Shown: piece after piece, positions 7,004 to 58,285 of the stretch
Position numbering within the stretch: position 1 is the first letter of the stretch
Layout of the letters: every line of letters begins with the position of its first letter
NCBI GenBank assembly: GCA_949751835.1
Contig: CATKHK010000098.1
Coordinates: 62,001-126,000 of the forward strand
DNA length: 64,000 nt
Source: Blepharisma japonicum
Lineage: Eukaryota; Ciliophora; Heterotrichea; Heterotrichida; Blepharismidae
Direction of reading: 5' to 3'
Translations under genes and position numbers: made by a program
Notes under the pieces: model-generated
Seen by the model: the letters and a program-made list of their open reading frames with translations, nothing else
Database searches by the model: none
Told to the model about the DNA's origin: nothing

Positions 7004-10000
7004 ATGAACTGCTTAGTGATTCTTGCCACTTTTTGGCTAGCAAAAAGCATAGACCTCACCTGCCCTTTATCAGTATGCCCAGACATCAACGTAACTTTAA
7101 ATTAGAAAGGTGATCACAGGTGTGATCCTGGCTGTATGACTTCTTATTGCAATTACGACACCACCCTTGAAATTAATGGGTCACCCCAAAAAGAAAGCTC
7201 TGATTGCTATAACAATTGTGTCAACCTTGACAGCTGTGATCCTCAAAATCTAGGAAATGGGATCTGCGACAGCTCTTGTAATACCGAAAACTGCGGGTTT
7301 GACTGGGGCGACTGCACTTGTTCTCCCGGATGCTTAAACTCAATGCTGGGAGATGGAAATTGTGATGAAGCCTGCGATAATTGAGACTGCGACCTTGACA
7401 ACCACGACTGTGGACAATGTGCAGATGGCTGCTTTCCAAATATGCTTGGAAATGGAATCTGCGACTTAGAATGCAATAATGAAGATTGTTTATATGATTA
7501 TAAAGACTGCCAATGTGCAGAAAACTGCTTATATACTGATTATGGAGCCTGCAAGCCAGAATGTCTGGTGGCTAGTTGTGAATTTGATAAAGTAACTCAA
7601 TACCCAAATAGTTGATGCTATAATACTTCTTTGGCTATTTTTTCTTCTTACCAACAAATCATACGTAACGATTTTTCTTATGTTACCCGTCTGGATGATT
7701 GTTATGCTGCTTCTAATTATGCATGCTCTTGGGAAAAATTAGTGGATTTTTCTAATTGTTATGACGAATGCAATATATTGGAATGCAACTATGCAAATGG
7801 AAACTGTAATAGTCAAGATTACCTTTGTCAACGTTACCACCCTGATGGATGCTTGAAGTGCCGTGACTTATATTGAGCGATAAGCATCTTGTGAAACAAG
7901 AATTGTATTTTAGCTGAAGAAATTTGATTTAATGCAACGAAATTTCCTGATGAATCTTCTGTTATTGTACCTTTAATAGACACTTCTTCGTCAAAGAATC
8001 CTCATATTTACTTCATAATTTCAGCAGGAGATCCTAGCTCCAAAGCTGGAAATGGGAATTATTTTAGCCCTTATGTAGGCTTTTCATATGGTCTTTCAAG
8101 AATAAAATATAACTATTCTATTATTTATTTGTTAGAAGGAGACCATTTTTATACATTAGAAAAACATTCAATCGGTAAATCCATGACTGGGGAAGGTTAC
8201 TACACAAACGTAATGGATCTTTTTCAAAATTTTTATGGGAAAAGTATAAAGATTACTCCTTTAAAAAACTCTTCAATTACTATAAGGAGATCAAAAGATA
8301 ATAATGAAGCTAAAACCTTTTCGTTTTACATAAAAGATGCCAAAATCTTTGAGATAAATAACATCGTTTTTGATTGGCAGGATACAATTTCATCTTGCGT
8401 AGGTAGTGAATATTGCGATTATTGTCCATTCGCTGTCTATGATTCGGCATTAGGCTACTTTTACAATGATAGAGGCGAAATTTTTGAGAATTTTTTACCA
8501 TTATCTTGATGCATAAAATATAGTATGAAGAATTTTATACAAGTTATATCAAGTAGTTTAGTTCTTCGCAATGTAACTTTTATTAATTTTCGGACAGGCT
8601 TTTTAACAATTCTATGCACAATGAATGGGAGCAATATAACTTTAAGTAATGTCACTTTTGACAATATAAAAGTTTATGATGGAGATAATGCTGCAGTAAT
8701 AGTGTCTGAGCTATGCACTGACGATTTTTTAGAGCCAAATACTGGAAATAGTTACGGAAACCTAAAATTTGAGAATGGCGCTGTTAGAAGGATCAACAAT
8801 GGGTACGAAATTAATGATGCAATCAATTTAAAAGGGTTTCTAAAAATTACAAGCATTTCTACTATTGTTTTCCGAAATATTGAATTCCAAAATAATGTAG
8901 TTTTTAGAAAATCTATGCTTGGAACAAATGAAGCTTCTCTTTTCTTTTTAAATATATTTCAGGCACTTTTAATTGATTCTTGTGCTTTTGAATATAACTA
9001 TTGTGACTTAGGAATAATAAATATACAGCAGGAAAGGGGTGAGTTTAGTCTTGAGATAAACGATAAAGGAGAGGTCATTTATTCAACTTTGAGTAATATT
9101 CATATTAAAAATTCAAATTTTACGTCGAATTATGGGATAACAGCTGGAATATTATATGCGAATTTTAAGGATGAAGCTCAAAATTTTCTTATTGAAGATT
9201 CGCAATTCATTCTTAATGGCATTGAAGCTGGCCCTTTAATTCATATTGAAAGCAGCTTGTCCAATCAAAAATACTTAAAAGATAGCATAGTTAATATTAC
9301 TAAATCTAACGGAATTGCTGTTGAAAGAAAATACTTAGCCAAGTGAGGAAAAATCCTTAAATCAAAATTTAATGAAAATTATTCAGGTGGAAATGGGATA
9401 TTTGAAATAGCCAAAATGATTAATATTAATATATCAACAGTTGAAATTAGCAATAATGGAGCTACTCTCTCTACGAATATTAATTCTCTGCTGGTAAAAT
9501 ATTATATTGAAAATCCTGATTTGTATATCAAGTCCAATGCAAAGGATTCTCCTGAGCTGAATTGCCAGCTTTTATCATCAATATCTGACTCTATTAATTT
9601 TAATATACAATCTGCAAATATTAAAAAAAATTACTGCAAAAGCTATTTACCAGGGATTCTCATGTCAAATACAGAAAAAATATCAATAAAATCATCTTAT
9701 TTTGAAAATAATAGTGGCGCAGGAAGTAATGGAATTTGCTTAATATTCAAAGGAAATGATTTAGTGACTATAAAAGACTCCAAATTCAATTCAAACATAA
9801 ATTATGAAACTGGAAATTCAGGAGCTATAAGCAGCCTTTCCAGCTTATTACTACAAAACTGCTCTTTTTATAACAACACTGGAGATGTAGGAGGTGCGTT
9901 ATATTTTGAGGGGCAAAATCTCTATATAGACTCTTCTACATTTGACTCAAATAAATCGCCGAATTTAAATGGAGGTGCTATTTATTTTTTAATTTCTCCT

Positions 10001-13000
10001 AGCAATAATAAAACACTGCAAATTTCAGACACAAAATTTACGAATAATTATGGAGGACTCAACGGTGGAGGAATTTTTATTCATAAAAATTCCCCTCTGA
10101 AGTATATATTATCATTTACTATTTCAGATACTTATTTTTATAATAATCAAGCTTTGGAAGGTTCATGCATTTATATTGACGATACTACCTTGATTTCTGC
10201 TGATTCTTCAATTGCCAACTGTGATTTTAAAGAAAATAAGGCAAGATTTTCAGGTGCTATTTCAACTCATTATATAAGTGGACAGCTTACTTTTACCCAA
10301 TGCACATTTTTCAATAATGCTGGAGCCTATAGTTCTGGATTTAATATAGAAATTGGAGAAAATAGTGAAATAAAATCAAAAATAATTTTTAAATCCTGCG
10401 CTTTTCAATTCAATTCAGGAATTGTAACGGTATCCCTCGATAATCCAAATATAAATTCTACATTGGAAATGGATAATTGTTCATTTGAGTACAATAGAGG
10501 CTCAATATTTTCCTTGGATAATGATAATTTAATTGAAAAAAATTCAAGATATCTTCATAATTATTCACCGATTTCTGGAGCAGTGCTGAATTTGAAAAAT
10601 TCAGCTGTTTTTCGGTCAGAAAAAGCAACATTTCACAATTGCAGTAGTGAAATTAATGGCGGGGTAGCTTCAATCAGCCAGAAATCTCAGTTCTTTTGTT
10701 TTTCATGCATTTTTACACAAAATTCAGCAGGGTCATCAGGGGGTGTCATATATGCTGACTCAGATGCTCAATTTCATATTTATGGATCTAATCTTAGCAA
10801 AAATATATGCAAAAATAGAGGCTCAGCTATATTCACGGCAAGTAGTTTAGTTAGCTCATCAATAGTAAATACTGAGATTAGTGAAAATTATTCATATAAT
10901 GAAGGCGCCATAGCCCTTTTATCATCACTTATTTCGATAACTGCCTCAAAATTCTCAAATAACTCTGCAAGTGGGAAAAATCCAGGTATTTTCCTTGAAG
11001 ACTCTGATGCTACCATACTAAACAGTGTATTTTCTGATCAAAATGGAGATCAAGGCTGCTTTATCCTCTTAAGCATGAGCTACCTAAAATCTGTCAATTC
11101 AAGTTTCAAAAATGGATTTTCAAATAGTTCAGGAGTTGCCATCCACGCCACATCAAGCACCGTCAACCTGATTTCTACATCATTTTCCAATCTTTTTTCA
11201 GCTGACAGCGGAGGTATAATTTATTTATATGAAGCCAGTACACTCTACTCTGAAAACTCAAACTTTACTAATTCAAACACCTCAATTGACACATCTTCAA
11301 GCTCACTTTTTATAGCAAATTCCTTTTTTAAAAATTATTCAAATAGTGCTATCTCAGGTGCACAAATGGTCTCGCTATCTATATTAAATTCAGATTTCTC
11401 AGATGGCTATGGAGTTAATGGAGGTGCTTTATATTGTTTGCAATGCAGCGATATTTCTATTAACTCAGCTTATTTTTTTAATAATTTTGCTGAAAATGGA
11501 GGAGCTATTTATATAGAAAATTCTGAAAATTCTCAATGTAATATAGAGAACTCTACATTTGTGTCAAATATAGCTGGAAATGGGGGTGCAATTTGGGCTA
11601 CAGGGATAAATTTGTATATTTTTGCTTCAAATTTCTATGAAAATCATGCTGAAGCTTGGCAGACTGAGACGTTGCAAGAAATAATAGATGGGATTGGAGG
11701 GGCTATGAAATTAGAATGTGAAAATTCAGATTGTTTTTTTGATTTTTCCTCAAATGATTTTAGGAGTAACTGGGCAGATTATAATGGTGGAGCTATAAAC
11801 TGAGATGACTCAAAACCTAATTTTACAAATAATAGCTTTTGGAATAATTCAGCAGAGTATGGAAATGATATAGCTTCTTTTCCTGTTATGATGATTTTTA
11901 TTAATAATACCAACAACAATCGAGTTCTTAATGATGATTGAGAAAGCAGTATGACATTAACACTAAATGACATAGCATCAGGCCAAAAAGATAATCCACC
12001 CTTAACTTTTGCTTTGGTTGACGACCTTCATCAGATCATCACAACAGATATAACAAGTCAAGCTCAATTAAAAAGTCTCAGCAGCGATACCATTATATCT
12101 GGCACTTCAACAGCCTATGCTGTAAATGGGATTTATTACTTCGATGACTATGCAATTTCTGCAAAGCCTGGAACATTAGCCCAAATATACATAGACTCCT
12201 CAGCTATTGATGAATCAAAAAGCGTAAATATGCCAAGCCAGTTCCTTATAAATGCAAAAATGAGACTCTGCAAAGTTGGAGAAGCCACGGTTGGTCTTGA
12301 GTGCGAAAGCTGCCTTAAAAATTACTATAATATTGATGCTAGAAATTCTAAATGCTTTGATTGCCCTTCTTCTGCTATTTGCTATGGAAATTATACTATG
12401 GTTCCTAAATCTGGGTTTTGGAGGGACAATAAATTTACTGATAGGTTTTGGAAATGTCTTTATCCGCCTGCTTGTTTGGGGTCATTGGATATTAAAAATA
12501 TTTCTTTTACAGGAATTTGTGAAGAAGGATATGAAAATAATTTGTGCCATTCCTGCAAGGAAGGGTATTCACGACTGTATAAAAATGAATGCCAAAAATG
12601 CCCTGATACTATTAGCAATGTTTTTAGACTTATTGGGATTTTTACATTATTAGTCTTTATAGCAATAGTTATAATAATTACTTCACGAAAATCTGCATTT
12701 GAGCCAGCTTCTTTTTCATCAATTTATATAAAAATTTTTTGAAATTATTTGCAGATTATGATTATAATCGCTACTTTTAACTTGAATTGGCCTCGTGAAG
12801 CAGTCGAGCTCTTTTATTTCCAAACATGTATGGATTATATCGGAGCACAGCTGTTTTCTATTGACTGTTTTTTGCAGAATTCGTATTCAAAGGAAAAAAT
12901 TTATTATTACAAAATATTAATTACAAGCTTAACTCCATTTTCTCTAGCATTTATTTGTCTATTATTGTGGATTGTTATTTATGCAATTAAAAGGAAAAAT

Positions 13001-13924
13001 CTAAGGGAATTGAAAAATGATTATATATCATCATTTACGATTTTGCTATTTTTGATTCACCCAAGTATTATTGATACAATGTTCAGCATTTTCAGCTGCA
13101 AAGAAATAAACAGTGGAGAGTACTGACTTAACGCAGATCTCGGAATTAGATGCTGAGACTCCAACCATTTGTTTTATGCTCTTTTATTCGCGCTACCTAC
13201 AATAAATATTTGGGTTATTGCAATTCCTGCACTTTGCCTCATAAAATTAATAAAAAGTAAAAGCACATTAGAAGATATATCAACTAGATTGAGGTTTGGG
13301 TTTTTATTCAATGGATATAGCTCAAAGTATTACTATTGGGAATTTTTAATTCTATATTATAAGGTAATTCTGATTATGTGCTCAGTATTTTTTTCGAATA
13401 TTTCAATAAATATTCAAGCCCTTACAGTAGCACTCCTGCTAGCTATATTTCTCCATATTCAAACTAAAAATCAACCATATCGCGAAAATTTGCTTAATAA
13501 AGCTGATAAATTGTCAAGAGTAGCTTCTCTTATAGCAATTCTATCTGGTCTTTTCTTTTTGACTGGTGATTTAGATATTATTGGAAAAAATATTTTACTT
13601 ATAATTTTATTGCTTTCTAATCTGCTATTTATCATCTATATCTTAATCCAGTTCCTGATGCAATTCTATATATTTAACGCAGCAATTGGAGTGTTTAAGA
13701 GGATTTTCGCTTTGAATAAAGGGAGAAAATATGTAGTTGATGTGGATCATGAGAATCCAAACAAACTTGAAAAAGATTATGCACCTATTGCTTCCCAAAA
13801 TATAAAAATAATAAGCACAGCAATATTTTCTGAAGATTCAAATATCGGGCATCTTGCTGAATTTGAGAGAAGTGCGAACATTTCAATTGAAATAGACCCA
13901 GTACCTTCAGAGCAAAGCGTTTAG
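7004..13924 (+). CDS. Giant LNR / beta-helix / multi-pass membrane protein
   Basis: One frame runs from ATG 7004 to TAG 13922-13924 with TGA=Trp and one 15-nt intron (7091-7105), giving about 2,301 aa. Visible in order: a hydrophobic signal peptide (MNCLVILATFWLAKS); at least three Notch/LNR-like cysteine modules at about 70-170 (pattern LGNGICDxxCNxxxC-D-xDC); another cysteine-rich part to about 300; a long series of short repeats (SxFxxNxAxxGGAI) at about 500-1,650, typical of a right-handed parallel beta-helix of the Pmp type; a cysteine-rich module at about 1,750-1,865; and a C-terminal region from about 1,867 with roughly eight hydrophobic segments and a short cytoplasmic tail. Likely a plasma-membrane or cortical surface protein with a very large ectodomain. 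Ligand and signalling partner are unknown. The LNR, beta-helix and membrane assignments are from pattern; receptor function is inference. Confidence 0.85.
7091..7105 (+). other. 15-nt spliceosomal intron
   Basis: GTAACTTTAAATTAG lies in frame after the signal peptide region. Left in place, it would end the protein at its own TAG. Removing 15 nt joins CPDIN to KGDHRCDPGC and keeps the frame. Length and GTAA..AG ends match the tiny introns known in heterotrich ciliates. Confidence 0.85.
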
Positions 13925-40403: not shown

Positions 40404-40512
40404 TTATTCTTCTTGTGATTCATCTAAACAGATTAGAACTTTTTCATTCAAATTAAATTTTTCGTATTTTTTATCTGCATACTCTTCATCATCAAAAGCG
40501 TCCATATGTCCA
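40404..40512 (-). pseudogene. 3' end of a kelch gene, cut at a duplication breakpoint
   Basis: Minus-strand reading GHMDAFDDEEYADKKYEKFN to a TAA at 40404-40406 is nearly identical to the C-terminus of the chimeric kelch gene at 59129-60592. Homology stops exactly at about 40512, where coding sequence of the SecA-GTPase giant family begins on the other strand. Confidence 0.75.
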
Positions 40513-43500
40513 AATAAAAAAAGTGTGGAACTTCTGCAATCAATTATTACTGTATATCAGCAATACTTTGAAAAGACTAATAATGATGTGATATCATTTA
40601 TTAATAATCAAGTGACAAATAATATAGCTGAAATTCAAACAAAATTTGATGAATTCAGCCCTGTTAATGGAGATACCTGATAGAGAGTATTTAATTTCTG
40701 CTTCTTATCAAGAAAGTTTAAATTCACTGATAAATAAGATCAGCTTTTTCAGAAAAGAAGCAAAAGAATTTGTTAAATCATTTATAAATTCTCCTGATTC
40801 TGTAGATTTTAATCACTTGCGTAATTGTTTCTTTTGGCTTGAGTCGGGAAAATGAGTCGAAAAATTAAGAGAAGGAATTTACAGTAATGAAATCTCAGGA
40901 ATAGAAAAAGAAATAAAAATTATATTGACAAACTTTTATTTAAAATTAAAAGAAATTAATTTAGGAATTCAAAAATTATATCCAATTCTTCAATTAAAAG
41001 AATTTATTCCTTCATTGGAAAATTATGAGAAAGATATTTGAATATTTTTAAGAAAAAGAGTTGAGGAAACATTGAAGCTCATAAAAAGAGAGTTTAACCC
41101 AGAATTGCAAGATATTGAAAAGGAAAACAATGATTTAAAAAGATTAATGAGTCAAGAGCATAAATTAGATTATGCACTCTATCATATAAAAGGCACAAAT
41201 TTAAATAAAAATGAGCTAGAGGATAAATATAATGAGTATAATGAACATTTTGGTCAGCTTCACAGAATATACTGAAGAATTACAAGTAATGAAGGGGTGA
41301 ATAGTGCAATCTCTCAAATATTAAGCCAAAATGAAATAGAGTCCAAAAATCATGTCATAACCTCTTTAAACCCAGATATTAATTTGATTAAAAACTTTAT
41401 CCCTGAGCTTTTAGCTCATATAGCAATGCTATGGGTACTTTTGAATATTAAAAAATATAATCAAGATGTAAATGACGAAGATCAAGAAATTAATATGGTC
41501 ACTCCACATACAATGCAGGTTCTATCAATATTTCGTATGATTGGCATTGGCTATGAAGAGAACACCAAATCTAAGAATAGCTTAGTCCAAATCCTAACAG
41601 GTGAAGGAAAATCAATCACATTAGCATTTTTGTGCTCCATGCTCGCTCTGCTAGGATTTAGTGTGAACTGCGCCTGCTATAGTGAGCACCTAAGCAATAG
41701 AGATTTTCAAGATTTTCAACCATTATACACAGCCTTAAATGTTTATCATATGTAAATATGGGACTTTTAACAAGCTCTGCGAAGATGAAATAAATTCTAA
41801 AGGCTATATCAGAACAATCGTTTTAGATTTCATAAAGTTTGGAAGATGTCCAGGGGTATATGATGAAACTGAGGAAAGACCTAAAATTCTTTTGATAGAT
41901 GAGGTAGATGTATTTTTCACAAAAACTTTCTATGGGAATATATATAGGCCTCTTGCTAAGCTAAAGCATGATACAATAAAGAAATTAACGGATGATGTAT
42001 GGAAAATAAGAAAAGCGCCTCAACTGATGGATATTTGAAATGCGCCTGAATATAACTCTGCAGTCTACAGTTTCCAGGATTCGAATTTCTCATTGAAGAG
42101 GCTGTTAAAGATATGATAAATCATGTCAGACAGTTTGAGTCACATGATTATATAGTGCAGCGCGATAAAATTTGCTACAAAGAGAATGATGGGGTTTCAT
42201 TTAATATATCTACGGATATAATACATTATTTGCATACTATTATGAGAATGAAAAGGGAAATATCTCTCAAAAAGCTTAGAAGAAAATATTTTTATTGGAA
42301 TTAAATGCGGAATGTTTTCATTTGCAGAAATTCCCCACAAATTCAATTACATTATGGGAGTGACTGGAACTTTAGAGACTTTGGATTATTATGAAAAAAA
42401 TATTATAGAGAATGAATACAATATAAAACTAAACACTTATATGCCATCAGTATTTGGGGAAAGCAACCGTATTTTTAGAAAAAAATTGGATATTTATGTA
42501 GAAAATAAACATAATTATAATATGAAGATAATGTCCGAAATAAATAGTCAAATAGCAGGCAAAAAAGCAGACTGCAAAAGAGCAGCATTGGTATTTTTCG
42601 AAGAAGAAACAAAATTAATGGATTTTTATAATAATTCAAATCTAAAGAGCACTGATTATAAGATTCAGCTCATGACAGAAAGCTTGAGTGCAGAAGACAG
42701 GGTATGATGATTAAAAAAGCAACAGTTCCTAATACGGTATCATTATTAACAAGAGCTTTAGGTAGAGGAATTGATTTTAAATGCGAAAATCATGAAATTG
42801 AGACAAATGGAGGAGTGCATGCAATCCAAGTATTTTTTTTCATAAATATATCAGAAAAACACAAATTATGGGAAGATCTGCAAGGCGAGGCCAAGAAGGA
42901 TCATTCAACATGGTCCTTTTAGATAGTGAACTAGAAAAATTTTGGCTTCAAAACATGATATTGAAAATATGAAAGGTAATGGTATCATTTATAATGGTTT
43001 GGGTGAGGAGAGAGGTGAATATAATCAAATAAAGAATAGCAATGAATCTGGACATGTGAAACAATCTAAAGCTCTATGATAGCTCAGTTGAATTTCAGTG
43101 TTTTCTTCAGAATAATAATATATCAAGAGCTAAAGGGTTTCTGCATGAACTCAATAAAGGATCCAGAATTAATATCTATGGTGCAAAAACAATTGTTTTA
43201 ATGGATGCAACAGGGTCTATGTCACACTTGTTACAAAACGCCAAAAATACTGTAAAAGTCATGTTTTCAAGAGTTTGTGCAGTTTTATCAAAGAAGGGGG
43301 TAAGTTTTGGGTGTTTTCAGCTTCAATACTGCTTTTATAGAAACTATAACTCAAACGAAGATAAAATACTCCAAATTTCACCATGAACAAACAAGCCTGA
43401 TATTCTGAAAAGGTTTATGGAGAATGTGCAATCTGAAGGTGGCAATGGAAATGAAGCAATAGAAGTTTGATTATGGCATATAAATAAGATTTCACAAAAT

Positions 43501-43874
43501 GATAAAATTTCACAAGTAATTTTAATTGGCGACAAACCTCCAAATATTATCGAGGATATTTCTAAGAAGCGAGGTACACGATCAGATTATTGAAATAGCT
43601 CGAAATTTAGCAGTGTCGAATATTATGAGATAGAGTTAAAAAAAATGATAAGTAAACAAATCCAATAAATGCCTTTTATGTCGCTAACTATGCTCGAGAG
43701 AAATTTGAAGAGATTGCAAGATTAACAAAAGGCCAAAGTGGGTTTTTAGATATTAATTCAAGCTCAGGGGCTGATAGACTTACTGATTTGGTATCAAAAG
43801 AGGTTTTAAGAAAGTCTGCTGGAGAAGATGCTGTAAATCTTTATCGAAAAATGTATCCTCGCTCATATACTTAA
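40513..43874 (+). pseudogene. Decayed, internally deleted copy of the SecA-GTPase-VWA giant gene
   Basis: Homologous to the giant gene at 46224-55387 but lacks the C2, first coiled-coil and GTPase parts. It also lacks about 2.9 kb of the central helical region (the join near 41150 corresponds to 49780 and 52660). Retained: TGEGKSITLAFLCSMLALLG (SecA Walker A), a LLIDEVDVFF box, VTGTLETL, RALGRGIDFK, IDF..GGVHAIQVFF, and a VWA domain with DATGSM. Frame breaks occur near 40660, 41740, 42040, 42300, 42700, 42860-42960, 43070 and 43663. The last 300 bases are almost identical to the giant gene. A pseudogene, useful for showing that the family has at least three copies. Confidence 0.85.
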
Positions 43875-44960: not shown

Positions 44961-45400
44961 CTTTTTAGTTCTATCGTTTCCAAAAATTTGTAAAAGAAAA
45001 TAAAAGACTCTGGCGATAACTATAATAAGATAACAACTGAAAATGGTCAGCAAAAGAGCTGTTATAGCATTTTGAAAATGAAGAGAAATTTAGAAAATAG
45101 TATGATGAATGGAATTCGAAAAACTATGAGGCAATTCTCAGATGATAAGATAAAAACTTAGTGCTAGTGATAGAGATATGGTGACCAAGAAAGAGACAGG
45201 TACAGATACTGTAATATTATTAACGAGAATTTTTGTAAAATATACTGATTTCAAATGTCTAAATAAAGAAGTAGAGAACAATTGGAACTCATACAATTCA
45301 AAAATTTCTATTAGAAATCAAGGTAGAAAAGACTCAAATTATAGGAAGAATAGCTAGGCAAGGACAAAAAGGATCATAAATGCAATTTATGCTTGCAAGG
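44961..45400 (+). pseudogene. Third, fossil copy of the SecA motor region
   Basis: Nucleotide similarity to 54080-54440 of the giant gene is clear. Readable pieces include AAAAGAGCTGTTATAGCATT (KRAV.AF), ATATTATTAACGAGA (LLTR), TTCAAATGTCTAAATAA (FKCLN), and the peptide TQIIGRIARQGQKGS, which corresponds to the SecA arginine-finger motif GRSARQGQAGS. Frames change and stops are frequent. Only the second half of the motor survives. Confidence 0.65.
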
Positions 45401-46223: not shown

Positions 46224-49200
46224 ATGATTAGTGAGCATAACCCTTTGCTTACATTTAAAGTCACTGAACTTGAATTTAAGCCAAACTGAGATATAGATGC
46301 AGCTCTAGAACTAAGTTATACGTTAACGGACTCTCAAACCTCCCATGTAATCTCCCTGTCTTCTGTTTTTGAGCCTTCACATGTTTCTAGCCTTCCTCCT
46401 GTTCCCTTGCAGTCAGGACTCTATAACTCCTTAGTTATTAGCATTTATATGAAATTCTTTGATGATCAAAAGCTACTTGGATCAGCATTAATTGATCTCA
46501 ACCAAAATCTCCCACTAAGGACATGACTAAAAATCCCAAGCAATGGCGATGAAGTTTTAAGCATAGAAATAGAAATCATCAAAGAAGAAAAAATTGAAAT
46601 CCTCCAAATAAATTCAGATGTAAGTGAAATTATAAATCAAAGTAAAAAATGTGAAAATCTACAAAATGTAAGAGAAGAACACAAAAATGAAGAGGAAATG
46701 AAAGAGTTATTAAGGGTCTATGAAATTGAAGATATAAATAGTGTTGGAGAGAAAATTGAAGAGACTAAAGGTTCCATTGCTCATTACCATAGTAGGAAAA
46801 AAATTGATAAAGAGGAAAAAGAAAAGACCAAGTTAATTGGCCTTCAAAGACTGTTGCAATTGAATGAAGAAATAAAGATATCAAAAGAGAATGAAGAAAT
46901 AGAATTAATTAAAAAGAACAACAAGACTCATAATTCTCATGCAAGTAATTTGGATGAAGAAAATCCAGAAGAAGAGCTAAAGCAAGGACTGAGTAAATAC
47001 CAAATTGATAATCCAAAAAAATTAGAAAAATTAATAAATGAATCAAAAAAAGTTATTTTATACTATCAAAAGATGAAAAATCTAGACGAAGTAGAAAAAT
47101 TAGAAAAACTTGTTGCAGATTATGTAAAGCTAAAAGACATATTCAATAAAATTAATTTGAAATCTATGATAATGTTAGATTTGAATGATATTAAAAACGA
47201 AAAACAACTAGACTTCATCGAAGGGCTTCTAAGCGATATTTCTTCTTACCCTGATTGCACTGAAAGATTTCTTACCAGCATTTTGTGCTATGCATATTAT
47301 AAAAACTATAATTTTGAAACTGCACATGACATTCATGTAAGGATTAGGCAAATAGATCATTTAAAGGAGTTCAATAATTTCATTGAGTTTTTAAATCAAA
47401 ATAAGCAAGAAAATTTGCCAAGAAAACTTATCAAAAGCTTTAAAGAAAGCTTTGAAAATCAAAATTGGAAAAATTTGATCAAAGACATAGAAAAAATTTT
47501 CAGAGATCATCTTCGTCCAATAAATATAAAAGAGATTTCTCGCTTAATTAGCAAATCAGTTCATTTCTCTGAAAATTTAGAAAATAAAGACATTATTTTG
47601 CTAATTGGAGTAACAGGCTCAGGAAAGTCAACAACAACTCATTTTTTATGTGAATCTAAATTAGAGAGAATTTCCGAAAATGGTGTGATGCATATCAAAG
47701 CTATTGCTGTGAAAACTCCTCTCCTAAAAAATACTATAATCTCTTCCCAGACTCAATCAGAAACTAGATATATCACTATGGTACCAATAAATATAAAAGA
47801 AACTGGAAAAACGATTTATCTGTGTGATGCCCCTGGACTAATGGATACAAAGGGCGCAGAGATTGACATAGCAAATACGATCAGCATTGTTGAGTATGCT
47901 AAGAGATGTAGAAGTGTAAGACCATTGATTTTATTAAGCTGCAAAACTGAGGGTGACAGATTTGAAGGAGTCAAGAAACTTGCTCATTCATTGGCTAGGC
48001 TTACTCCAAATTTCAATAAATACAGCAATTCGTTTACATATGCATTTACAAAATATAAAAAGAAAGACGCTGCAAATATGCATGCATTGATAAAAGACGC
48101 TTTAGAATTAACTGATAATCAAGATGGAGCATTTTTTCATATTTTAAATGATATGAAAAATAAAACTAAAAATGGAACAATAACTATAAATCCTTTAGAA
48201 GATAATCCTCAAGATCTTATTAGAATAATAATGGAAAGAGAGCCAATATTAGACCCAATGAATGCGTTTGAACATTTTATAACTGAAGATTCTCGATTTT
48301 ATATTAATAATCAAATGTTGGTTTATTCAAAAGATATTGAAAAAGCATTGAATTCGATGAGTTATGAAATGATTAAATATAAACTGGACGATCTTAAGTA
48401 TATAATAACTCAATTTAATCAGTTTGAGCCATATTATAATAACTGTGTTGAATCTGTGATTACAAATACTAATGATGCTTATAACAAAGCAGTTGCCCAA
48501 TTTAACAGCTTTCTTGAAAGGCATGGATCTTTGGATGAAAATAGCATAAAATTGTATAAAGAAGTTTATAATGCTCTGAAAATATCAGAAGAAATCAGGG
48601 AAAATCATTTAAAAGGTGAAACAGTCAAATCAGCAGCAATGATAACCAATATTGTCTCACAGCTGAGCCTTGCTCAGCTCAGCTTAAAATGTGAAACTAC
48701 TGATTCTTACATTTTGAAAGCCCAATTAAATAATGCAAAAGTTTTAAGTCAAAATTTTGGAGAAGTAGCTCCTCACTATCAAAATATTATTACAGATTAT
48801 AAAAATCTCATTAAAAATTTATTCAATTCTGCAGAGTCGCATTTAAATGATAACAATTTTGAGATTTTTGCAAGCACTTTATTGCAAGCAAAGAAATATT
48901 TAGGAATCGTGGTGGATCATTTTAATTTAGAAGCTTTAGAAGAAAAGCATAGCAATCTTATAAGTATTTTCAAATCGAACTTAAAGAGTTGAAAAGATAA
49001 ATCAATTTCCTTACTAAATAAAGGATGCATTGAAAAATATGACATAGAGATTCTCCAAAGAAGCATATCTCTTATAAAATCAGCTATTGATGCTCACTCT
49101 TTAAATTCTTTAATACCACAAGAAGATATAAAAAATATTTTGCAAGAAACTCTTAAGTTCTATCAACAATACTTTGAAAAGGCCAATAATAATGTCATAG

Positions 49201-52200
49201 AACTTATCAATAATGAGGCCACGCATAATATATCTGAAATTGAAACAAAATTTGATGAATTTAGCTTATTGATGAAAATTCCTGATATTGAATATTTAAT
49301 TGTTGCTACTTATCAAGAAACATTAAACTCTCTAATAAATAAGATAAGCCATTTCAAAAAAGAAGCAAGAGAAATTGTCAAAGCATTTCTCATTTCTCCA
49401 GACTCTACCAATATTAGCTTTTTGCGTAATTGCTTTTCTTGGCTTGAGTCAGGAAAATGAATTGAAAAATTTAGAGAAGGGACTTATAGCAATGAGCTCT
49501 CAGGAATAGAAAAAGAAATAAAAAATTATATGGATAAATTGTTAGTTGAATTTGATGAAATTGATTTAGGATACAATTTTTCTGCCAATATATCCAAAGC
49601 TTACAAAATTATAAAAAAATTAGATCCAATTCAGCAATTAGAAGAATTTATTCCTTCTCTGAGGAGCTATGACAATAATATATATGTAAAATTCAAAGAA
49701 AGAATTGAAAAAGTATTAAAAATAATGAAAAGAGAATTTAATCCAGAATTGGAAGATATTGCAGAGGAATTAAATGATTTAGAGAGATTAAAAGGAATTA
49801 GGAATGAGTATTTGAAATATAAAGAAGAAAAGAAAACTAAAAATTGCGAAGAATTGCTTGAAATAAATCGCGTTGATAGCATCAGAGAAATAGACTCAAA
49901 AATAAGCAAAAGGGAGCATTTTATTGAAATTTTCAATAAAAAATTGATTAAGAACGTGTTTGATGTTGATAGAATAGAAGATTTTTATAATTATATTGAG
50001 GAATGCAAAAAAATACCAGAATTATCTAAAATTATTGAGCCTTTCTATACAAATATTATACCTATGCTGTCTCAATTCTATAACAATCATATGAATTCTT
50101 CGAATGAATGCCTTAATGCTATTTCAATACATATTTCAAATAACATTATTTGAGACATAAATATTATAAAGCAGAATTCTTATCAATTTTCTTTAAGCTT
50201 CAAAGAAATAATACAATTAAATTCAAAATCTCAATCATTTTTCAATTTTTTAGAACTGCTGCCTCACTATGACCATTGCAACAGCCAGCTTGATAGTTTA
50301 TGCCAAAAATTTGATGGAAAGTTTAATTCTTGTGTTGAAAAAAATGAGATCAAACTTATCTCTCTGCTATTAGCTGTTGCTAATGATTTTTCTAAATTTA
50401 ATAATACATTTTTAGAAATTTTAAATAGCTATGAAAAAATTCAAACCTCCAAACTAGATCAAATTTCCCAAAACATAATTCAATTTATTCAGAGCCATGA
50501 TTTTGATAAATTAAAACAATTGATAGAAAAGCTTGATGAAATAGTATTAAATCAGTTTATGGACACTATTAAAAATAAATTTTATTCAGAAATTGATAAT
50601 TTATTGGATCATCTTAAAGAGCGTGTCTTAAGTATAAGCAATTCTAAGCTTGAAAGTGCTCAATTAAACAGTGTAATCACAAGTTTCCAAGATATAATCT
50701 CTGCTAAAAAATTAGACCTTTATGACTTATTATTAGATAACAAAACAAAACAAATATTTATAAATCAAGAGGAAGAAGTTAAAAAAATATTTCATAGTAA
50801 AATTGAATGAATTTTATATACAATAAAAGAAGCTGCTGATTTTGATAAATATTATGAGGCTGAGCTGAAAATGAAAATTATTCAAGAAATGAAAAGCAGC
50901 TTACTTTTGCTCTTTGAGCCAAAATTTGCAAAAACTCATATTAATAAAATTGAAAAGAAGCTTGGTGGAATGCCGAAAAGAGTTATTGACACTATAAGAT
51001 TATGCAATATTAAAGATTTGAAGCAATGCTCTCTACGAATAATTTTACAGGAATTTGAAGATGCTTCGAAAATATTCCCAAGATATAAAGGCGCTTCTGA
51101 TAAAGTCAAAAGTATAATTTGTAAAAAATTTGAATATATAAAGGACACTATTAATAAAAAATATCCAGCTGAAAAAAAAGAGATTATTAAAGACATTTCA
51201 TCAATATTAGATTGTTTGCCAGATGACATTAAAAAGTTGGGTTGTTGTTTAATAAATGAAATTAAGAAAAATTATAAAGCTGAAAAACAATTTACAAGGG
51301 AGAAGATCGATCTACTAGCAAAAGATCAAAATATAAAAGAACTTTGCACAATTTATCATAAATTAACAAAGAAGAAATCCGAATCAGACGCTCTTTATGC
51401 ATCTAAGAAAATAAAAGAAGTGTTATTGCAAATAAAAGATGAAATAAGCTCTTGCCTGAGCAAAGGTGAACTAGAGAAAGCCTTTAAAAATGCTGGCGTT
51501 TTGGAGTTCGAAGGTAAACTAAATGGCATAATTTCTAGCAGTGACATAACACTATTAGAAATTCAGAAAAGTCTAAAGAAATTTGTTGAAAATGCTTTGA
51601 GTGTTCTCCTAAATGTTGAACATAAAGATAAGAGTGATGAGCTAATAGAAGCTTTTAAAGTTCATATCGTTTTTATGGATTTTAAAGTTAATTTTGAAAA
51701 AGAAATGGCAATTTCAAATGTTTTTGAAGTTAATAACATCATTGAAAGCATGGTGGTAGGCATATTAAATATTTACCAAAACCTCTATAAAAGTTATTTA
51801 GAGTTTAGGCCTCCAAAAAATGCTTTTAAATGCAATAATATATTAAATAAAATAAGAGAGTGGGATGAGTTTTTCAGAATTTATAAAGAATATATGTCAA
51901 ACTATCAATATTACCATTGCAATATTGACTATTTAAAAATTCAAAAACTTCCACGTTACTCTGAGCTTGTTGAGGAATTAAGTAATAACTTGCATCAATT
52001 TAGTGGTTATTTTCTTAACATGAGAATCGATCTTAATCAAATAAGACACCAAAAACTCATTGAAGATTGTGCTAATGAAATTCAAGAAAGACTAAACCAA
52101 ATGCAAAATTATGAGGATATAAAAAATCATCTAAATCCTCAAACTCTTTTTGAAAACATTAAAGAAGGAGTACTTGATTCGATATCCAAAGAATTGAATA

Positions 52201-55200
52201 GAATTGTGAATGATGCATCAATTTTGATAAATAAAGTAGAAATTACAGAAAAGGAATTTGATGATCTCAAAAATTATTATAGTTGCCTTGCTGTGTTTGA
52301 GAAAAATCTAAAAATAAATGGCATCGATTGGAGAAAGACTCTTAGTGAAATTGAAGACATGATGTATTGCAAAACTCTGAAACTAAAAGAAAAGGCTGAG
52401 ATGGAAACTCAAGTCGATGAAATTGCTAAGCCTTTAATTAAAATGAAAAAGATTTCAAATGATTTCCCTCTGCTTAAAAAAGAGCTTGATAAAATTATGG
52501 ATGATTTTTTCACAACATTTGGCAAGAAAAATAAAGAAATGGCTGTAGCAATGTTTGGAGAATTAAATAAGCATTCAAGCGAATTAGGACGCTATATAAT
52601 CGCAGAGCATAGATTCTTTGAATGGCTAGTGAAAAAACTGTGAATTGATAAGACTCAAATGCACGGTATAGACTATGCAATTAACCATATAGAAGGCACT
52701 AATTTAAATAAGGAAGAGCTACATAATAAATATTTAGAATGAGATGGAAAATTTAAAGAGTTACGCCAAATATATTCAAGAATAGCAAGTAACGAAGGAA
52801 TAGGCAATTCAATAGCTCAAATAATAAGCAAAATAGAGATAAAATCTAAAGATCATGCAATAACTCCTTCAAACAAAGATTTCAGCGTATTTAGAGGTTT
52901 TATTCCTAAGCTTTTAGCTTATATAGCAATGCTATGGGCTCTTCTGAATATCAAAATATACAAGCAAGATATAAATGCTCGAGATAGAGAGATTACAATG
53001 ATTATTCCACATCCAATACAAATCCTATCAATATATCGCATGATTGGCATTGGCTATGAAGAGAATGCGAGACCTAAAAATAATTGGTTCAAATATTAAC
53101 AGGGGAAGGAAAATCAATCACGTTAGCATTTCTATGCTCAATACTTGCTCTATTAGGATTTTCAGTTGACTGTGCCTGCTATAGTGAGCATCTAACTAAA
53201 AGAGATTTTCAAGATTTTCAACCTTTATACACAGCATTAAACGTCTCCTCTTATATAAAATATGGGACTTTCAACAAACTTTGTGAAGATGAAATCAATT
53301 CCAAAGGTGACATCAGAACAATAGTTTTAGATCTCATAAATCATGGAAGATACCAAATGGCGAATAGAGAAGTTGCTGAAAGACCAAAAATTCTTCTAAT
53401 AGATGAAGTAGATGTATTTTTCACCAAATCTTTCTATGGGAATATATATCGACCTCTTGCAAAATTAAAGCATCCCAAAATTAAGGCATTAACTGATTAC
53501 ATATGGAATATAAGAAATTCACCTGAACTTGAGGAAATAGAAAATACACGCGAATATATGAGTTGCTGTAAGCAATTTCCTGGATTTGAATTCATCATTG
53601 AAGAAGCCGTTAAAGATATGGTAAATCAGGTACGCCAGTTTAAATCACATGACTATATAGTCCTAAATGATAAAATTGGTTACAAAGAAAATGATGGAGT
53701 TTCATTCAACATTAATTATGGATATAATACATTATTTGCATATTATCATGAGAATGAAAAGTTAAAAATATCTCGAGAAAGCTTATGTGAAAATATTTTT
53801 ATTGGAGTTAAATGCGGCATGTTTTCATATGCAGAAATTCCTCACAAATTTGAATGCATCATGGGAGTCACTGGAACTCTAAAAACTTTAGGGGATTATG
53901 AAAAAAATATTATAGAAAATGAATATAATATTACACAAAGTACCTATATGCCATCAGTATATGGTGACAATCTTCGTGTCTTCAGAAAAAATGGAGACGT
54001 CAACGTAGAAAATAAGGATAATTATCATATGAAGATAATGTCCGAAATAAATAGTCAAATAGTAGGCAAAAAAGCAGACTGCAAAAGAGCTGTATTGGTA
54101 TTTTTCGAAGATGAAGCAAAATTAATGGATTTTTATAATGAGTCACTCATAAAATATTCTAATTATGAGATTCAGCTGATGGATGAAACCTTGAGTGATG
54201 AAAACAGAAGCATAATGATTAAAAAGGCTACAATTCCAAATACCGTATCATTATTAACGAGAGCTTATGGTAGAGGGATTGACTTTAAATGCCTAAATAA
54301 TGAAATTGAGGCAAATGGAGGAGTTCATGCAATCCAAGTATTTTTTTCAGAAAATATACCAGAGGAAGCTCAAATTATGGGAAGATCTGCAAGGCAAGGT
54401 CAAGCAGGATCATTCAGTATGGTTCTTTTAGATTCTGAGCTAGAAAAGTTTATAATCTCTGAACAGGATATTGAAAATATGAGACATAATGGGACAATTT
54501 ATGATGGCTTAAATGAAAAAAGAAATGAATATAATAAAATTAAGAATGCCAATGAATCTAATCATGTGAAACAATATAAAGCAGAGCATAATAGTTCAGT
54601 TGAGTTTCAGAGATTCCTTCAGAATGGGGATTTGAAAAAAGCTAAAAGATTTCTGCATGAACTCAATGAAGGATCCAGAATTAATATCGAAAGCACAAAA
54701 ACAATTATTTTAATGGATGCAACTGGGTCTATGTCTCATTTATTGCAAAATGCCAAAAATACTGTGAAGGAAATGTTTAAAAGAGTTTGTGCAGTTTTAT
54801 CAAGGAAAGGGATAAATTCTGAATCCTTCCAGCTTAAGTATTGCGTTTATAGAAACTATAGCTCAAATGTAGATAAAATACTCCAAGTTTCCCCATGAAC
54901 AAATAAACCTTATATTCTAGAAAGATTTTTGGAAAACATAAGACCTGAAGGTGGTCAAGGAAAAGAAGCAATAGAAGTTGGATTATGGCATATAAATAAG
55001 ATCTCACAAAATGATAAAATTTCACAAGTAATTTTAATTGGTGACAAGCCTCCAAATACTATTGAGGATATTGCCTTAAAACGAGGTAGACGATCAGATT
55101 ATTGAAATAACTCGAAATTTAGCAGTGTCGAATATTATGAGATAGAGTTAAAAAAAATGATAAGTAAGCAAATCCCAATAAATGCCTTTTATGTCGCTAA

Positions 55201-55387
55201 CTATGCTCGAGAGAAATTTGAAGAGATTGCAAGATTAACAAAAGGCCGAAGTGGGTTTTTAAATATTAATTCAAGCTCAGGGGCTGATAGACTTACTGAT
55301 TTGGTATCAAAAGAGGTTTTAAGAAAGTCTGCTGGAGAAGATGCTGTAAATCTTTATAAAGAAATGTATCCTCGCTCATATACTTAA
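46224..55387 (+). CDS. Giant C2-like / GTPase / SecA-type ATPase / VWA protein, one frameshift
   Basis: From ATG 46224 the frame is open with TGA=Trp to about 53095. It resumes shifted by one base from 53084 to TAA 55385-55387, giving about 3,054 aa if joined. Order: C2-like beta-sandwich, about 1-125 (LLGSALIDLNQN, RTWLKIPS); charged coiled coil, 130-450; P-loop GTPase, about 455-660, with G1 GVTGSGKS (462-469), G3 DAPGLMD (from 535) and a TKYKKKD G4-like motif; about 1,500 residues of helical, probably spectrin- or dynamin-stalk-like sequence; SecA-type DEAD motor, about 2,250-2,760, with TGEGKS (from 2293), the SEHLTKRDFQDFQPLY element, DEVD (2394), VTGTLKTL, RAYGRGIDF and GRSARQGQAGS (from 2720); and a VWA domain from about 2825 with MIDAS DATGSM (2832). 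No signal peptide or membrane segment, so cytosolic. The SecA preprotein-crosslinking domain is replaced by a short unrelated segment. Role unknown: both NTPases look catalytically complete. Confidence 0.8.
53078..53086 (+). other. Frame change just before the SecA Walker A
   Basis: The giant gene reads AAAAATAATTGGTTCAAATA, where its paralogue at about 41570 reads AAGAATAGCTTAGTCCAAAT. One base fewer here puts VQILTGEGKS in a different frame from the preceding RMIGIGYEENA. No 14- or 17-nt GT..AG intron fits. It may be an assembly error, a recent inactivating deletion or a recoding site. Confidence 0.65.
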
Positions 55388-56985: not shown

Positions 56986-58285
56986 ATGTTTAACGGGAGG
57001 TGCTTCAAAGATGGCTGTACAAGCAAGCTGCATGGAATATGCAGATGTGAAGGACTCATCCTATTCTGCAGAGACCATAGTCTTGAGCATTTTGAAAAAC
57101 CAACACCTAAAGGGCATCAAATCATAAGATGCTACTTTAAACCAGCAGAAGAAATCAAGCAGCCAATTATCGATAAGCTAATAGAACTAAAAAAAGATAT
57201 CAAAAATTTTAAGATTGAAGCAATTACTAAGGCAAATGAAATTATTAAGAATTTTAATACTGAATTTATGAAATATCTCAATCAAATAAATGAAGTAAAA
57301 ACAAGATGCAATAAAATAATTGAAATCTTATATAATGGAGAAGAGGTTCTTGATATTGCTACTGAAGGTGACATAGAAAATGTTTTAAAATTAAACGTTT
57401 CAGATATTAAATATAAGACAATCTGGTGAAATATAAGCAAATGCAGCTACAATGCAATAAATGAAGCTATCAAAAATATTTATAAAAGTCCTTTTGTGGT
57501 TTCTTTTGTACCAACTTTTGAAAATGAAATTGAATCAAACGAGCTTTCATTTTTTAGAGATAACACTTCTAATTTTGCAACGATAAACTTAGATACTTTC
57601 CAGATTTCCTCTACAGTAACTCTTCCAACTGAAACAACAATTAGTCCATATACTACAAGCTGTATACTCCCTGATAAAACGTATTTTTATTGCTGCAATA
57701 CTAATTCTAGTTCAGGACTTACATTTACGATTGACAAAAATAAAAATTATAAGCAGCTGCAAAATTCAAAAGTGTATTATTATGCTGTCCCTATTTTTTA
57801 TAATAATTTTATCTATTTAATAGGAGGAAATAGCAATCAGGCTCAAAGATATGATTTTAAACAAAATTTTTGGGAAAGCATAGCTCCATTACCCCATGGT
57901 TTAAATTTTAATTACAGCTGCAGTGTGCAATATAGAGATTCAATTCTTATAGCGGGCTATCATATCCAAAAAGTAATAATTTATAGCATCCCTCAAAATA
58001 GCTACCAAGAAGCCCCGAATTTTGATATTAAATGTTAATTATCATAAATTGATATTGAAAGGGAACAATAGGATTTATGTATTTGAGAATGGAGGAAGGA
58101 ATTTTGAAAGTGGCGAAAACAGTATTTCAAGTTGGACTCAAGTAGGAACTAATAGCATTGCAAATGATTTCAGACATTCTAGTATTGTTCATTATAAAGG
58201 TTTCATTTACTTTATTCAACATCAATACCAACTCTGGAAGTTCGATCTCACTTCAAAGCAAGCATCTCAGGTTACAACTTTATAA
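56986..58285 (+). pseudogene. B-box-like zinc finger / kelch gene, frameshifted duplicate
   Basis: Almost identical to the gene at 38234. It starts at ATG 56986 and keeps the zinc site (RCFKDGC, ICRCEG, FCRDHSLEH), the coiled coil, and the SCILPDKTYFYCC and IFYNNFIYLIGG blades. One extra T in AATTTTGATATTA near 58018-58022 shifts the frame, giving a TAA a few codons later. The last 87 codons (ILKGNNRIYVFENGG to the final LWKFDL) continue in the other frame to 58285. Product, if made, lacks the last two blades. Recent, since both parts are otherwise clean. Confidence 0.75.

Follow-up and report, generated by a model that had tools for sequence, protein, structure and literature searches.

SecA is the motor protein that drives protein export in bacteria and plastids. 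The SecA translocase is described by the families PF07517, PF21090, PF01043 and PF07516, and its Walker A (TGEGK[ST]), DEVD, TGT, GRGxD and GRxxRQG motifs are shared by the gene analysed here, which lies in a window of 64,000 nucleotides from the ciliate Blepharisma japonicum (GenBank assembly GCA_949751835.1, contig CATKHK010000098.1, positions 62,001 to 126,000 of the forward strand; window coordinates below count from the first letter of this stretch). In contrast to the translocase, the giant protein family to which this gene belongs has its motor fused to a GTPase-type domain, a long helical region and a von Willebrand A (VWA)-like domain, and is separated from housekeeping SecA by a branch with 100/100 support.

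Several described groups of proteins combine some of these elements. Secondary SecA_DEAD proteins of Planctomycetes, Verrucomicrobia and others lack the wing/scaffold or retain a small fragment of it and occur in loci with type I secretion components (PMC4452313, compared by description only); the terms 'GTPase' and 'von Willebrand' are absent from the main text of that paper. The host-directed effectors of the amoeba symbiont Amoebophilus carry GIMAP-type GTPase and SecA-like helicase-related domains among their variable C-termini, and a single GTPase-SecA-VWA protein is not described in the available part of the source (PMC3482391). According to the accessible text of PMC8195603, giant actinobacterial toxins contain a SecA-like ATPase as a predicted secretion aid; that of PMC11521996 mentions housekeeping secA only. 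A further group, here called 'type II' SecA-like giants, comprises L067-L069 and two plasmid proteins of Candidatus Megaera, a symbiont that was sampled together with a ciliate. All are large bacterial proteins with a SecA-like motor, as in the giant family; however, the tree described below places them on the side of SecA, and the cross-linking domain (PF01043, PPXD) scored over the cut-off in one Megaera protein and below it in the other. No GTPase or VWA family was found in the Megaera proteins in Pfam scans, and neither motif was seen in L067-L069 in what was a pattern check only. The very large inducible GTPases (VLIG/GVIN) are alike in size only; to our knowledge, VLIG-type proteins have no SecA motor. 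A search of the literature by titles and abstract openings returned nothing on a GTPase-SecA-VWA protein in a ciliate, which suggests that the giant family is undescribed. Some eukaryotic sequences may already be annotated as SecA-like in protein databases.

The Megaera plasmid deserves separate mention. Two adjacent SecA-like proteins are encoded at positions 36608-57076 of CP113870.1 (L039), both outside the giant family; one is 5225 residues long and has subthreshold HEAT/Arm repeats, a PPXD over the cut-off and a subthreshold RickCE-type protease.

Members of the giant family consist of a variable N-terminus, a septin/GIMAP-like P-loop domain, a long helical region, a SecA-type ATPase and, in most cases, a VWA-like domain. 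The family is expanded in tandem arrays in the ciliate and is rare in Gammaproteobacteria and Chlamydiota. When TGA was read as tryptophan, the window copy was found to occupy two overlapping frames, with the following features (NBD, nucleotide-binding domain; MIDAS, metal ion-dependent adhesion site).

46224..53099, forward strand: the upstream of the two frames (2291 codons), which runs from the N-terminal segment through the charged linker, GTPase-type domain and long helical region into the first part of SecA NBD1
53084..55387, forward strand: downstream frame, 767 codons, with the rest of the SecA motor and the VWA-like domain; 80% identity to the intact paralog C14a
53070..53100, forward strand: interruption of the reading frame in the window copy, immediately ahead of the SecA Walker A; the four intact paralogs are continuous here in one frame
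46224..46598, forward strand: N-terminal segment of about 125 residues, beta-rich in a low-confidence model and alignable only among ciliate copies
46599..47540, forward strand: charged helical linker, from a low-confidence model and the composition of paralog C14a
47541..48323, forward strand: septin/GIMAP-like P-loop domain, with G1 GVTGSGKST at residue 462, a conserved SET, G3 DAPG at residue 535 and a degenerate G4
48324..52763, forward strand: long stretch, about 1480 residues, whose composition (poor in Pro and Gly) is that of a helical region; its second half is homologous to the bacterial counterpart
52821..54463, forward strand: SecA-type motor (NBD1 and NBD2), spanning the frame break, with HPIQILSIYR, TGEGKS, LTKRDFQDF, DEVD, TGTL, GRGIDF and GRSARQGQ
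54701..55384, forward strand: VWA-like domain with MIDAS motif DATGSM (VWA_2 21.4 bits, cut-off 27)

The initial annotation had assigned the motor to SecA rather than to the DEAD/DEAH helicases, and the profile hidden Markov model check that was then run gave the same answer. In the window copy, SecA_DEAD (PF07517) scored 33.0 bits against a cut-off of 24.6, and Helicase_C scored 26.4 bits against 23.5. Three of the four intact paralogs and four of the seven bacterial relatives were also scanned, with SecA_DEAD scores of 28.3-32.6 and 36.5-46.4 bits, respectively. All 24 matches at E≤0.01 in a PDB profile search with the motor were SecA; together with the SecA_DEAD score over the cut-off, this result ruled out an ordinary DEAD/DEAH helicase. 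With a single motor sequence, 18 of 21 PDB matches at E≤1 were SecA, the other three being thymidylate synthase. Foldseek returned SecA for 21 of 24 matches at E≤0.001, although the motor model used was of low confidence and lends weak support. The SecA hallmarks quoted from the sequence were all present: TGEGKS, DEVD, TGTL, GRGxDF and GRxARQGQxGS were invariant in the eight aligned ciliate copies, the window copy included, and the LTKRDFQDFQPLY element varied among them, with L, RD, F and L kept.

The domains with which SecA handles preproteins were searched for in the same way. PPXD, the wing/scaffold (PF07516) and SEC-C (PF02810) were not listed for the window copy at E≤10, by a program whose filters drop many weak matches, whereas two housekeeping SecA proteins from the genomes of L038 and L037, used as positive controls, scored 142.1 and 84.6 bits for PF01043, 229.6 and 176.7 bits for PF07516, and 40.5 and 31.7 bits for SEC-C. 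The motor can thus be described, with good support, as a SecA-family ATPase in which no cross-linking, wing/scaffold or SEC-C domain is detectable. The cross-linking domain had been thought to be replaced. Although it was undetected, the DEVD-TGT interval that holds it was only about 20 residues shorter than in SecA (157 residues in the window copy against 178 in one housekeeping control; the other has an insertion), and its second half aligned with SecA. The PPXD segment is therefore best regarded as shortened and diverged, rather than as shown to be absent.

To place the window copy in its genomic context, the 45 Mb assembly (224 contigs) was searched; only the best candidates were scored, and all copy counts are lower bounds. 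SecA_DEAD was over the cut-off at all 11 of the 11 places found. The GTPase segment gave 16 matches, comprising 12 at ≥49% identity, two on contig C63 at 28-29% and two fragments, and the VWA segment gave 14, all on contigs that bear SecA gene arrays. Four copies were intact in a single frame: C14 20279-29404 (3041 residues), C169 22782-31958 (3058), C25 412446-421787 (3113) and C25 423105-432437 (3110). All four were collinear with both window pieces; the upstream window frame matched C14a at 58% identity. The remaining copies were split, truncated at contig ends, chimeric or without an N-terminus. Since four paralogs are each uninterrupted over 3041-3113 codons and collinear with the window pieces, the fused architecture is real; the single giant protein that had been read from the window holds for these paralogs but not for the window copy itself.

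Identity between groups of copies was approximately 29-32% over the long upstream part or the whole length and about 50% in the SecA-VWA part. In the C25a-C14a comparison, SecA (55%) and the GTPase domain (52%) were best kept and the helical region (29%) least. Pairwise Nei-Gojobori ratios of non-synonymous to synonymous change (omega; translation table 4) were 0.29 for the C25 pair, 0.25 for the C14 pair, 0.37 for C25a-C14a, 0.29 and 0.22 for the window pieces against C14a, and 0.38 for the downstream piece against C14b; these values average the history of both copies and are silent on the present constraint of the window copy. Frames of more than 3000 codons, omega of 0.22-0.38 in six of eight comparisons, and the uniform SecA identity of the PDB profile matches exclude chance as the source of this gene.

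At C140:52122-63992 (L032, L033), a 3957-codon frame that runs off the contig end is a tandem chimera, in which residues 829-1758 of C169a are followed in frame by residue 305 to the end of another copy. The tandem pair at C25:412446-432437 (L030, L031) showed uneven synonymous divergence (linker 0.058, SecA 0.375), a pattern that gene conversion would produce. Contigs C169, C140 and C208 start or end inside gene copies, and the arrays are therefore probably longer than assembled. The two weaker GTPase relatives (C63:240019-243319, 28-29% identity) lie outside the SecA arrays and could be motor-less relatives.

The ciliate code, which had been assumed at the outset, was upheld. Trp605 of the downstream frame is encoded by TGA; the position was Trp in all eight rows covering it in alignment A2, including one standard-code bacterial relative, and in six of seven rows of alignment A6, with Phe in L064. 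Three units of CCCTAACA, the Blepharisma telomere repeat according to the available part of PMC9942806, matched the assembly exactly 77 times on the forward and 91 times on the reverse strand, and the reversed control gave no match; the matches listed either opened a contig or belonged to a single run at high coordinates. Combined with the ciliate code, these repeats point to Blepharisma. For the giant genes, contamination of the assembly with bacterial DNA was ruled out by the use of TGA for Trp, the telomere repeats in the assembly, and the presence in the window of Kelch-repeat genes with TGA codons.

The complete GTPase initially reported upstream of the motor was confirmed as a GTPase-type P-loop domain, but its completeness was not supported. 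G1 (G....GKST) and G3 (D-x-P-G) were invariant in all ten aligned rows, and a conserved SET was read as switch I. MMR_HSR1 scored 23.5 bits (cut-off 21.9) when the window segment was isolated and 18.3 bits when the whole frame was scanned. The AIG1 model gave 12.9 bits in the window copy (cut-off 27) and E≤0.1 in seven of ten members, the best being 0.0027. Profile matches included septins (Septin-9) and GIMAP4, with midasin and ABC transporter P-loops scoring higher there, and GIMAP7 came first in a fold search with the N-terminal model, which is of low confidence and gives weak support. These comparisons support a domain that is probably nearest to septin/GIMAP; it differs from those proteins in its subthreshold AIG1 score and degenerate G4.

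The window copy has a VWA-type MIDAS. VWA_2 was below the cut-off, VWA matches were obtained in four of seven members at E≤1, and the two proteins matched in a PDB profile search with the segment were weak hits (E 0.11 and 0.75) and not VWA domains. DATGSM was kept in only three of eight aligned ciliate copies and was altered or deleted in the other five; it was present in three of seven bacterial proteins, two of the seven being cut by contig ends. The C2-like domain proposed for the N-terminus was not recovered: no Pfam C2 and no PDB sequence matched this segment at E≤10, and it was beta-rich only in the low-confidence model.

Relatives of the ciliate gene were then found in bacteria. A scan of genome contigs confirmed two loci of 247 pattern matches: L038, in the Gammaproteobacteria metagenome-assembled genome (MAG) OFTM54, and L037, in the Chlamydiae MAG OFTM140. 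The L038 protein is 3462 residues long and has a GTPase-type domain, a helical region, SecA and a VWA-like domain. Whole-genome searches at E≤1e-20 found matches in 4 of 369 genomes of the class of L038 and 9 of 232 of the phylum of L037; these counts include both starting genomes, and the class or phylum of the further carriers was inferred from the L038 and L037 assignments. Close relatives (≥324 bits) accounted for 3 of the 4 and 4 of the 9 matching genomes, that is, for 3/369 and 4/232. The remaining one and five matches scored 75-86 bits; the three of these six that were placed in the tree fell on the SecA side with the Megaera type II proteins. When genomes from the phylum of L038 were searched at E 1e-25, the single match in 398 was the starting genome itself, and further searches of single orders found no additional members. 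Among viral contigs, 51 stretches matched the pattern and none was confirmed, and phages gave no match. In plasmids, the downstream frame matched three records, none covering 80% of the frame, and a bacterial relative used as query gave no match.

Stop-to-stop frames were 3093 (L062), 2792 (L063), 3010 (L064), 3323 (L065) and 3464 codons (L038), and L037 and L066 were cut by contig ends. The five complete frames shared the order GTPase, long helical region, SecA, and the GTPase P-loop and G3 were present in all five. DATGSM was carried by L038, L062 and L064; L065 and L066 end before a VWA, and no VWA was detected in L063. The spacing from P-loop to Walker A was 1821-1827 residues in three intact ciliate copies and 1278-2080 in five bacterial proteins. 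Some motor motif patterns were missing: DEVD, GRGxD and motif VI in L063, GRGxD in L064, and TGT and motif VI in L065 and L066. Eukaryotic contamination of the bacterial contigs is unlikely for L038, L062 and L065, which adjoin ordinary bacterial genes (NhaA, SpoVR, aconitase, GGDEF/EAL or a branched-chain amino acid transporter). None of three neighbours of L063 matched Pfam, and the single neighbour of L064 scanned was a protein kinase. Since bacteria hold proteins of the same size and order, the idea that a bacterial motor had been captured in a ciliate gene was not sustained.

In a profile alignment (hhalign), the ciliate and bacterial helical regions were matched at 95.5% probability (E 1.6e-8) over 758 collinear columns in the second half of the region; the control, the ciliate helical profile against the N-terminal regions of two type II proteins, gave 0.1%. 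A motor tree of 22 rows was divided by a 100/100 branch into the eight ciliate and seven bacterial giant proteins on one side and two housekeeping SecA and five type II proteins on the other. This tree omits the decayed window copy, the partial copies C14:309-5990, C169:1-3243, C169:4143-7580 and C169:32693-35782, and C208, and the low-scoring G406, G470 and G473 were not taken as full genes. L063 formed a long branch. L038, L062 and L064 grouped together with 99/99 support and, weakly (77/88), in a ten-row GTPase tree, where long branches meet. Given the helical-region homology and the motor tree, the fused chain seems to be older than the split of the ciliate and bacterial copies, as judged from sequence comparison. 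These results suggest that a whole multidomain protein is shared across domains of life, a giant machine that moved between protists and bacteria.

The direction of movement is evenly balanced in our assessment: the ciliate may have acquired a host-directed protein from an intracellular bacterium and then expanded it, or bacteria may have taken up a host gene to subvert the host. The ciliate rows formed one clade (100/100), next to which stood bacterial groups with Gammaproteobacteria and Chlamydiota intermingled, and in the approximately unbiased (AU) test the bacteria as a single clade were just not rejected (p-AU 0.059), so that a position of the ciliates among bacteria is slightly preferred. 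However, the base of the clade is unresolved; neither placement of the ciliates with one or the other bacterial group was rejected (0.257, 0.349); the eukaryotic sample is one genome; and the patchy presence fits uptake by bacteria equally well. Either history is compatible with the mechanism proposed below, since it concerns origin and not mechanism.

The identity of the family is well supported, and from it we infer a function. Our best explanation as a whole, which is put forward tentatively, is that these proteins are GTPase-gated, ATP-driven remodellers of polypeptides that act in conflict between protists and bacteria. The GTPase domain would gate self-assembly on a cytosolic target, the helical region may serve as a stalk, and the SecA motor would grip and remodel a polypeptide using ATP, without SecYEG. 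The VWA domain, where its MIDAS is intact, may dock partners or clients. The protein is probably soluble, as judged from a crude hydropathy test, and no hydrophobic N-terminus was seen by eye, in line with the absence of a signal sequence originally reported. The least certain step is the role itself, which on the ciliate side could be cell-autonomous defence or symbiont control, and on the bacterial side a host-directed factor or counter-measure.

The conflict role is favoured by the rarity of the bacterial copies (3/369 and 4/232), the presence of Chlamydiota among the carriers and the ankyrin-repeat gene that adjoins one copy. It is also favoured by the tandem arrays with their decayed and chimeric copies and by the loss or alteration of the MIDAS in five of eight copies. 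Further arguments are the GIMAP-type GTPases and SecA-like domains found among the Amoebophilus effectors, in the part of that literature available (PMC3482391), and the first rank of GIMAP7 in the fold search, low-confidence model though it was.

A number of observations weigh against this explanation. PPXD and the wing/scaffold, the parts with which SecA moves preproteins, were undetected, and the motor may not translocate anything. No [NT]KxD-type G4 was seen by eye in the ten-row GTPase alignment, and the GTP specificity is putative. In L063 the Walker A reads SGQGKS and there is no DEVD pattern. In the C169/C140 group omega rose to 0.53 (C169a-C169b) and 0.77 (C169a-C140a) overall, and to as much as 0.98 in the helical region. 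Both structure models were poor, with mean pLDDT (predicted local distance difference test) values of 46.6 and 42.2 from three-row alignments. Hydropathy maxima, taken from the highest window of each of 14 sequences, were 1.43-2.14, and in 10 of the 14 fell in the helix at or after the motor Walker A. No gene neighbourhood links the family to immunity, and PADLOC gave no match for the ciliate protein and one weak match (12.5 bits) for the bacterial one.

The undetected export domains also bear on the possibility that the protein is a signalling or scaffold NTPase, in which the SecA core would be an ATP-driven conformational switch that translocates no polypeptide, and the GTPase and VWA domains would assemble a complex. 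STAND NTPases are thought to act as switches of this kind. The lack of any PPXD, wing/scaffold or SEC-C signal where the housekeeping controls were positive would be expected of such a protein. Furthermore, only 111-112 residues separate motif VI from the MIDAS in the ciliate copies (112 in the window copy), and 124-191 in three bacterial proteins, at the place where SecA holds its scaffold and wing. However, the DEVD-TGT segment remains, shortened but alignable in its second half, and the catalytic motifs, motif VI included, are kept in the eight aligned ciliate copies. We regard a pure switch as a serious possibility, though an unlikely one.

A more ambitious form of the remodeller explanation is doubtful. 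It holds that these are GTP-gated, SecYEG-independent SecA machines, each a single chain of 3000 residues, exchanged whole between protists and their intracellular bacteria, and that in ciliates they would constitute a rapidly duplicating, cell-autonomous immune or symbiont-control system stripping, unfolding or extracting bacterial or vacuolar proteins. The array structure would also suit a selfish or arms-race family without cellular benefit, such as a drive gene that spreads by tandem duplication and leaves decayed, chimeric and contig-breaking copies, but the omega values of 0.22-0.38 in six of eight comparisons render this improbable.

It is very improbable that the window holds two separate genes, the second beginning inside the motor. 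Two frames are indeed present. However, the break falls within NBD1: the upstream frame passes the Q-motif-like HPIQILSIYRMIGIGY and ends at 53099 within that domain, the downstream frame has stops directly 5' of LVQILTGEGKS, and its first ATG lies after the Walker A. The four paralogs, moreover, are fused. A spliceosomal intron joining the frames was sought among GT-AG introns of 10-120 bases and GC-AG and AT-AC introns of 10-39 bases; the only candidates (GT-AG of 98 or 116 bases, AT-AC of 29 bases) all delete the Walker A, and an intron was rejected; Blepharisma introns are mostly 15-16 bp, according to the available text of PMC9942806. The window copy is either an incipient pseudogene or affected by an assembly error at the frame break. 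Finally, an accessory Sec translocase working with SecYEG in a ciliate organelle is scarcely credible, since the NCBIfam SecA2 models that matched the downstream frame (47.5 and 44.5 bits) were far under their cut-offs (930 and 862), PPXD, wing/scaffold, SEC-C and a hydrophobic N-terminus were not seen, and the motor lies apart from housekeeping SecA in the tree.

The window also contains remains of other copies of the giant gene.

40504..43871, forward strand: second, decayed copy of the giant gene, with several frame breaks and an internal deletion (C14a residues 1183-2130 unmatched)
45049..45397, forward strand: remnant of another copy, covering part of SecA NBD2, upstream of the main window gene

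Elsewhere in the window, a 2262-codon frame at 7136-13924 had LNR (Notch) repeats over the cut-off. The Kelch model was over the cut-off in 6 of 10 neighbouring proteins scanned at 14271-39532 and 56986-58038, perhaps another local expansion.

These results show that a ciliate nuclear genome encodes, roughly a dozen times over, a SecA-type motor without detectable export domains within a chain of 3000 residues. If the motor does move polypeptides, it would be a SecA machine without a translocon. If the family acts as a conflict system, it would tie the struggle or accommodation between ciliates and their intracellular bacteria to a specific molecule.

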